In this document: in pieces, positions 51,234-52,461 of the stretch | How positions within the stretch are numbered: position 1 is the first letter of the stretch | Layout: every line of letters starts with the position of its first letter | Assembly: GCA_016204605.1 (NCBI GenBank) | Contig: JACQKK010000156.1 | Location: 1-52,461, forward strand | DNA from: Candidatus Lambdaproteobacteria bacterium | GTDB taxonomy: Bacteria; SAR324; JACQKK01 | Direction: 5' to 3' | Length of the DNA stretch: 52,461 nucleotides | Translations under genes and position numbers: made by a program | Notes under the pieces: model-generated | What the model saw: the letters and a program-made list of their open reading frames with translations, nothing else | Told to the model about the DNA's origin: nothing | Databases searched by the model: none

Positions 51234-52001
51234 TCAGCGGAACTCCGCCGAGACGGCGCCGATGGGGTGGAAACGCGCCTCGATCAGATCGCCATTGGCG
51301 ATGGGGAACTGGCGCGTGAACGAGCCGGTCATCACGCGCATGCCGCGCTCGATCCGGCGGCCGAAATCGGCCAGCCGGTTGGCGAGCCAGGCCAGCGAGG
51401 CCGCGGGGTCGCCCAGCACCGCCTCGCCCGTCGCGCCGCCCACCCGCTCCCCGTTGATGAACACGGCCGAGATGACCTTGCGCAGGTCCAGCGCCTGCGG
51501 CGAGTAGGGCACGGGCGTGCCGGTCACGAAGTACTTCTGCTGGACGTTGTCCGCCATCGCCAGCGCGGGGTCGGCCGCGAAGTCGCCGCGCCGCTCCACG
51601 ATTTCGAGGGCCGGCGCGACCGCCCCGATGGCCTCGCGCGCCCGCTCCGCGGTCACGCCCGGGCCCTTGAGGGGCTTGGCGAGAGTGACGCACAGCTCGT
51701 TCTCGAAGCACGGCGCCACCAGCTCCTCCACGCGCAGCACGGCGCCGGAGGCCTTGGCCGCGCTCTCCAGCAGGAAGCCCAGGATGGGCTCGTCGTAGCC
51801 GAGCTGCTGGCGGATGTCCTTGGCGGTGAGCCCCACCTTCCAGCCGGCCTGGCGCTGACCGGCCTTGAGGTGGCGCTCCAGGATGCCCAGTTGCACCTGG
51901 TAGCCCTCCTCGACCGTGAGCTTGCCTTTCCACTCCGGCGGGTAGTAGATGCCCTGCTGCGTTGCCTCCCAGATCGCTTCCGTGGCCTCCCGCACACCCA
52001 T
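51234..52001 (-). CDS. 2-oxopent-4-enoate hydratase-like protein, copy 2
   Basis: 255 residues, paralogue of copy 1 over its full length: KLTVEEGYQVQLGILERHLK, QRQAGWKVGLTAKDIRQQLG, LVAPCFENELCVTLAKPLKG, VAPALEIVERRG, ADNVQQKYFVTG, WLANRLADFGRRIERGMRVM and TGSFTRQFPIANGD. Compared with copy 1, it has GYDEPILGFLLES at the active-site loop. ATG 52001 aligns with the family start; the frame is open to 52055. It is the first gene of the pair and its promoter should lie between it and the MITE-like element. Confidence 0.87.
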   Translation of the reverse strand: MGVREATEAIWEATQQGIYYPPEWKGKLTVEEGYQVQLGILERHLKAGQRQAGWKVGLTAKDIRQQLGYDEPILGFLLESAAKASGAVLRVEELVAPCFENELCVTLAKPLKGPGVTAERAREAIGAVAPALEIVERRGDFAADPALAMADNVQQKYFVTGTPVPYSPQALDLRKVISAVFINGERVGGATGEAVLGDPAASLAWLANRLADFGRRIERGMRVMTGSFTRQFPIANGDLIEARFHPIGAVSAEFR

Positions 52002-52092
52002 TCCCGGATGCCCTCCACAAGGTTGGCGATGGCTGCCGAACCCGCACGGTAGCACGGGCCGCGCCTGCGTGTAAGAGCATCCCGCCGAGCGC

Positions 52093-52353
52093 CCAGGGCA
52101 AGTCCAAAGTCGTCCGTCACTTCATGCCGTCTGTGGGCGTCAGGGTCGCGGCGATGGCCTGCGGAGCGCTGCCCAGCGCCCTCCCTCCCCGGAGTGGATC
52201 GCTGTGGCGTCGGGCCGGCAACCCCACCCCGGCCTTCGGGCCCCCCTCCCCGCAATGGGGGGGAGGGGCCGGGGGAGGGGTTTTGCAGGGCAATCGCACT
52301 CTTGACCTGCCGCGCAATCCCGGACGGAAGCGGCGACTTTGGACTTGCCCTGG
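52093..52353. mobile_element. 261-bp MITE-like element with 20-bp perfect terminal inverted repeats
   Basis: CCAGGGCAAGTCCAAAGTCG at 52093-52112 is exactly inverted at 52334-52353. The element is flanked directly by CCGAGCGC (52085-52092) and CCGAGTGC (52354-52361), an 8-bp direct repeat with one mismatch, as expected of a target-site duplication. There is no transposase frame; the interior holds GC-rich hairpin repeat sequence related to the dispersed elements. An 8-bp duplication occurs in ISAs1 and IS66 families among others; the parent family is not identified. Bases 52002-52084 and 52362-52461 show no gene. Confidence 0.65.
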
Positions 52354-52461
52354 CCGAGTGCCGCGCGCCCCAGTCCGGCCAGCGACCCCGGGCGCCTTGC
52401 CGGGTCGGCCGCCCGCGGGTATGCTTAAGGGGAGGCGCAGGCCCACGCGAGGGTGAGGGGC

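Follow-up and report, generated by a model that had tools for sequence, protein, structure and literature searches.

Locus and Borders of the Element

The window, which is the whole analysed stretch of 52,461 nucleotides, corresponds to contig C37 of the host draft genome (80% complete; 3.84 Mb in 212 contigs) and has a G + C content of 70%. Near the end of this contig lies a small repetitive element without recognised genes, located between a hydratase-type gene on the minus strand and a second predicted promoter on the opposite side (Table 1). The hydratase-type gene was assigned below the equivalog cut-offs and its start codon at 52001 was picked by eye. The second predicted promoter reads towards an ABC-transporter ATPase gene, which was seen on contig C59.

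Table 1. Features at and around the MITE copy of the window; coordinates are those of the window.
Feature	Position	Strand	Remark
FAA-hydrolase/2-keto-4-pentenoate hydratase-type gene	51234..52001	-	behind the phased promoter
Predicted -10 box TACCGT	52046..52051	-	same promoter as CTTACA
Predicted -35 box CTTACA	52070..52075	-	19 nt outside left end; score 7.0, spacer 18
Target duplication, left copy GCCGAGCGCC	52084..52093	.	10 bp, 9/10 identical to right copy
MITE, subfamily A copy	52094..52352	+	259 bp; borders set by comparing 43 distinct flanks
Left terminal inverted repeat CAGGGCAAGTCCAAAGTCG	52094..52112	+	19 bp
Central G + C-rich palindrome followed by TTTT	52222..52280	+	borders approximate
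Internal CAGGGCAATCGCACT	52286..52300	+	exact 15-nt match to the start of an ISAs1 end from Xanthobacter (L100)
Right terminal inverted repeat	52334..52352	-	identical to the left repeat on the minus strand
Target duplication, right copy GCCGAGTGCC	52353..52362	.	10 bp
Second predicted promoter TTGCCG-N17-TATGCT	52397..52425	+	45 nt, off the phased distance

The sequence-only reading had placed a MITE-like element at 52085-52361, with perfect 20-bp inverted ends and an 8-bp target duplication. The inverted repeat was confirmed (52093-52112/52334-52353; 0.01 matches at up to three mismatches expected in shuffled sequences), and the abutting repeats CCGAGCGC (52085-52092) and CCGAGTGC (52354-52361) are indeed identical in seven of eight positions. 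The borders, in contrast, were redrawn. Across the 43 distinct flanks, the ends have the C of CAGGGC as their outermost common base, and the next base outwards is unconserved. The element therefore has the extent given in Table 1, with inverted repeats of 19 bp and a duplication of 10 bp, and the 20th base pair of the inverted repeat is part of the target duplication. A duplication of 8 bp, for which the IS66, ISL3, IS256 and IS1595 types were considered, was rejected on this multi-copy comparison. Point changes near the start of the end were found at two other ends in the genome (CAGCGC in C97, CCGGGC at the right end of C112). The proposed lack of coding capacity agrees with the absence of recognised genes inside the element, and the open frames crossing it look, by our judgement, like run-throughs typical of high G + C content.

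The right arm of the central palindrome has 40 genome-wide matches at up to three mismatches. A similar palindrome followed by TTTT is also found outside the MITE in this genome and has a terminator-like or REP-like look. The internal CAGGGCAATCGCACT is possibly a fossil end; at the homologous place of related MITEs the sequence is less end-like. A structured RNA as the main function was rejected, the best Rfam matches being microRNA models at chance level (E 0.31 and 0.39). The single strand folds better than its shuffles (z about -6), as expected of an element with inverted ends and a central palindrome.

Copies in the Host Genome

The host genome was searched with the element and with its end, resulting in 42 DNA matches to the former and 47 matches to the latter at up to two mismatches, while a reversed control pattern gave none. 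The 44 ends studied here are those with up to three mismatches to CAGGGCAAGTCCAAAGTCG within the fetched loci; three of the 47 matches (C125, C158 and C208, each with two mismatches) were left out. Both ends are present on one contig at three places (C37, C112 and C73). For the remaining 38 ends the contig stops inside the element, so the repeat itself broke the assembly.

Using a 9-11-bp duplication with at most one mismatch as the criterion, 12 insertions could be closed (C37, C112, C11/C55, C140/C120, C14/C50, C204/C95, C79/C210, C3/C143, C97/C27, C170/C196, C165/C89 and C96/C68). When all 903 pairings of distinct ends were compared over their outer ten bases, 4 pairs matched perfectly against a mean of 0.007 at 1560 shifted offsets. 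Two further matches, each with one mismatch, were not used: the 8-bp match C182/C54 would join the two subfamilies A and B, and the 9-bp match C37/C86 involves C37, which is closed already. These subfamilies have the left end in common and differ in their insides. Eleven of the 12 closed insertions pair a left with a right end of one subfamily; in the twelfth (C79/C210), the C79 end offers just 28 nt of element for typing. Together with 17 unpaired ends and the element on C73, which has no target duplication, the closed insertions add up to 22-30 insertions in the genome. The mean divergence within half-elements is 0.7-1.5%, which indicates a recent burst.

No complete element was found in 97 other genomes, where weak matches in three genomes cover its central part, and a plasmid DNA search gave no match. 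The exact 18-nt end occurs in five records of a named genome collection, about the number expected by chance, and a second end at up to five mismatches was absent from these records except for one weak match in L074. For an empty-site comparison, the neighbouring gene region on the left was found to be 67-69% identical in the nearest genomes compared, which belong to other genera, the match stopping before the intergenic part. A sequence lying at the orthologous place in all relatives and lacking other copies, the picture opposed to a transposable element, was not encountered.

Older, diverged repeats with homologous insides are located on six host contigs (C18, C160, C108, C193, C76 and C206; L108-L113). 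Those on C206, C108 and C76 carry different ISAs1-type ends, as if these had changed together with the partner transposase.

On contig C59 (positions 1-227, compared with 52094-52461), the left half of the window copy comes first and runs directly into the right flank of the window. This half is identical at all 118 of 118 bases and shares two single-base changes and a deletion of 7 bp, none of which occurs in the 12 other aligned left halves; the flank, read by eye, equals that of the window except for an AA/TT difference. The simplest reading is that two strains of the population sampled carry this copy in opposite orientations next to one flank; duplication of the locus or an artefact of amplification could also account for it. 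According to PMC10969869, inversion is known from Correia elements as well.

Kinship to the ISAs1 Family

The combination of a 10-bp duplication and a CAGGG end points to the ISAs1 family. For comparison, 35 ISAs1 loci from other genomes and plasmids were collected, of which 31 gave ends and four gave none. CAG...CTG ends with a 10-bp duplication at up to two mismatches could be assigned to 23 of the 35 loci, 21 of these duplications being perfect; another eight loci were dropped for lack of such a duplication. The set is slightly redundant: L141 and L145 are two copies of the same insertion sequence, and so are L097 and L146. Typical ISAs1 ends read CAGGGCAAACGCAT, and the end of a copy in a genome of the host's family (G005, L079) reads CAGGGCAAACGCATTCTA. 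The window element, with its end CAGGGCAAG and its duplication conserved in nine of ten positions, shares with the family both the start CAGGG, common to most ends, and the length of the duplication. It differs from the autonomous members in lacking a transposase and in the continuation of its end, which is GTCCAAAGTC instead of the NCGCAT of most of them.

On contig C73 (66818-67269), the same ends flank a piece of an ISAs1-family transposase, which matches PF13808 (5.8e-31, interrupted by one stop) and NF033564 (2.7e-22). This truncated remnant between window-type ends was the sole ISAs1-family transposase piece and the only autonomous-partner candidate found in the 80%-complete assembly, in which no full-length ISAs1 transposase was detected; a solved-structure search with the piece returned no matches. 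A transposase of the NF033564 type putatively acts on window-type ends and would be supplied by an ISAs1 copy outside the assembly. The 44 ends in one genome, the closed insertions and the remnant between the same ends bear out the sequence-only reading of a non-autonomous transposable element: the feature is a gene-less MITE, probably mobilised by ISAs1, that has recently multiplied.

Small elements whose ends differ by one base from those of the window element were found in two genomes of the host's family (G005 and G006). The G005 element has a length of 176 bp and a perfect 10-bp duplication, and lies before a tRNA-Met gene (L115). In G006, which belongs to another genus, a stretch on C293 (38-271, L138) has the ends CATAGCGAGTGCAAAGTC and CAGGGCAAGTGCAAAGTC, no clear duplication and a palindrome-rich inside.

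Predicted Promoters at a Fixed Distance From the MITE

Outside one end of the MITE, a predicted sigma-70-like promoter was found, the -35 box of which starts 14-22 nt (mostly 19-21 nt) from the element and the -10 box of which lies at 41-45 nt. These promoters are predictions based on an E. coli-like matrix; the word counts for TTGAC and TAnnnT do not depend on this matrix. Since the flank of C59 repeats that of the window, it was excluded and 43 of the 44 flanks were kept. Over the first 200 nt of these flanks, TTGAC was counted 12 times, with six occurrences at 19-20 nt and at most one at any other position. For TAnnnT, 16 occurrences fall into the 5-nt bin at 41-45 nt, compared to three or fewer in any other bin up to 200 nt. 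Ten of the 11 occurrences of TTG-N20/21-TAnnnT start at 14-21 nt.

For matrix scoring, the right flank of C37 (109 nt) was excluded as well, leaving 42 of the 43 flanks. A score of at least 6 bits within the interval of 14-22 nt was reached in 18 of them, whereas 119 other intervals gave such scores in 0.51 flanks on average and in no more than 3; at 8 bits, 15 flanks compare with 0.17 elsewhere. The best promoter of a flank lies inside this interval in 19 of 42 cases (2.5 expected, p 7e-13), all of these figures being somewhat inflated because the interval was picked on the same MITE data. In all 12 closed insertions, the interval scores at least 7.0 on exactly one side and at most 5.7 on the other. 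Eight of the 17 unpaired ends score at least 6.6, and nine have no phased promoter, as would be expected if the latter are the far sides of insertions. Examples of phased promoters are TTGACA-N17-TAACAT at 19 nt (C170), GTGACT-N17-TAGAAT at 21 nt (C3), TTGACA-N18-TAGTGT at 20 nt (C97) and TTGATC-N17-TAGGCT at 21 nt (C112), as well as the unpaired end on C64 (L021), where TTGACA at 20 nt precedes four tRNA genes (Thr, Tyr, Thr, Trp).

With regard to the geometry, the centre of the 10-bp cut is located 5.5 nt outside the end, the -35 box starts at about 19-20 nt and the -10 box lies at about 42-44 nt. Given the usual distance of about 7 nt between -10 box and transcription start, the cut centre falls near -50. 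The C-terminal domains of the alpha subunit of RNA polymerase touch the DNA near -50.

No word in the flanks is placed more sharply than GTCAA/TTGAC, so the transposase alone might read a DNA word, namely TTGAC at a distance of about 14 bp from the centre of the cut, with RNA polymerase uninvolved. This is rather unlikely, as the peak of the -10 word TAnnnT is no weaker and has the right spacing, and several phased sites (C68, C86, L150) combine a poor -35 with a good -10 word. Such direct reading of promoter DNA is nevertheless the nearest rival to a guidance by the holoenzyme.

The sites are intergenic, given that 15 of the 20 flanks on the promoter side have a long outward open frame starting within 220 nt. 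The same count would also fit random insertion of the ISAs1 MITE followed by survival of those copies that lie upstream of promoters and harm no gene, and MITEs in general are intergenic according to PMC10969869. This course of events is improbable, because it would scatter insertions over tens to hundreds of bases, whereas the phase actually seen spans just a few bases.

The first 25 nt outside the C196 (L003) and C89 (L005) ends contain, after the target duplication, CAGGGCAAGTGCA or CAGGGCAAGCGCA. These flanks resemble the end of another ISAs1-type element, and one and the same promoter-upstream site may be hit more than once.

Phasing in the ISAs1 Family and in Older Relatives

The autonomous ISAs1 copies were analysed with the interval of 14-22 nt fixed beforehand, using the 46 flanks of the 23 copies with ends and duplication. 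Scores of at least 6 bits were found within the interval in seven of 46 flanks (mean 1.13, maximum 3 in other intervals), and the best promoter was located there in ten of 46 flanks compared to 2.8 expected (p 3e-4). Clear phased cases are L139, L143, L144, L150, L154 and L161. Many autonomous copies have no phased promoter or lie in genes (e.g., L096, L097, L146, L156), L146 splitting a hipA-like gene. The L079 copy, which has no duplication and is not in the kept set, is followed by TTGACA-N17-TAAGTT at 18 nt.

Three older related MITEs were inspected in the host genome: two are phased on one side at 15-19 nt (C206 and C108:32843), and the third (C76, 27 nt) is not. The G005 element has a phased promoter (TTGCGG-N17-TATATA) at 18 nt, which is the third-best score of its flank; in the G006 element, a good phased promoter was not seen. 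Overall, the MITE shows strong promoter phasing and the ISAs1 family a moderate one. Since phasing is also found beside different ends, it follows the transposase family and not one end sequence.

This bears on an account by positive selection, in which the element end improves the neighbouring promoter by an effect like that of an UP element or an operator, so that the spacing is kept. The fixed spacing to the -35 box fits this account, IS5 and MITEs reportedly provide a precedent for altered expression of neighbours, and changed expression near MITEs is described in PMC10969869. It is, however, very improbable: the end is not A + T-rich, either end can face the promoter (the left end in eight and the right end in four of the closed insertions), and phasing is also present beside different ISAs1 ends in other bacteria and beside the older MITEs. 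A phase of a few bases is not readily explained by either selection account, and it would rather arise at insertion than by later selection.

Proposed Mode of Insertion

Ends, duplications, copy number, burst, the ISAs1 kinship of ends and remnant and the phasing to predicted promoters are read from the sequence. On this basis, a DDE transposase of the ISAs1 family likely mobilises the gene-less MITE in trans and inserts it at a fixed place upstream of predicted sigma-70-type promoters. The transposase would bind the 19-bp ends and join the element, in either orientation, to a 10-bp staggered cut at that place, the centre of the 10 bp being about 14 bp before the -35 box and thus at about -50 from the transcription start. 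As this centre is upstream of the -35 box, both boxes would stay intact. The guidance could come from bound RNA polymerase holoenzyme, which we prefer, or from the promoter DNA itself. For the ISAs1 family as a whole, we tentatively propose that its transposases may be promoter-guided, recognising the promoter-bound sigma-70 holoenzyme or a DNA feature found only in promoters and inserting at about -50.

Among known systems, the Correia elements of Neisseria are similar in being shorter than 500 bp, having inverted ends, and being intergenic with many near-identical copies (PMC10969869). The window MITE differs from them in its ends and duplication, and its predicted promoters are found at a fixed phase beyond the element, not within it.

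If true, the proposed insertion mode would make ISAs1 the equivalent in bacteria of those yeast elements that are directed to the transcription machinery. Ty3 and Ty1 insert at Pol III genes of yeast, Tf1 inserts at Pol II promoters, and phage Mu has hot spots near regulated promoters. The ISAs1 MITE would likewise insert at a set distance from the transcription start, with the difference that here the insertion sequence is a small one of the DDE type from bacteria and the promoters are of the sigma-70 type; kinship to these systems is not claimed. In a narrow literature search, promoter-directed insertion of this kind was not found, which is no claim of its absence from print.

Insertion sequences are mostly thought to be loose in their choice of target. 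The copies at a fixed distance from predicted promoters suggest that a bacterial transposon can use promoters as an address, and a transposase reading the position of a promoter to within a few bases would tie transposition to transcription. If true, this would explain the spread of copies without breakage of genes and give a simple experimental handle on the mechanism. Furthermore, the positions of such elements could mark promoters in the genomes of uncultured bacteria.
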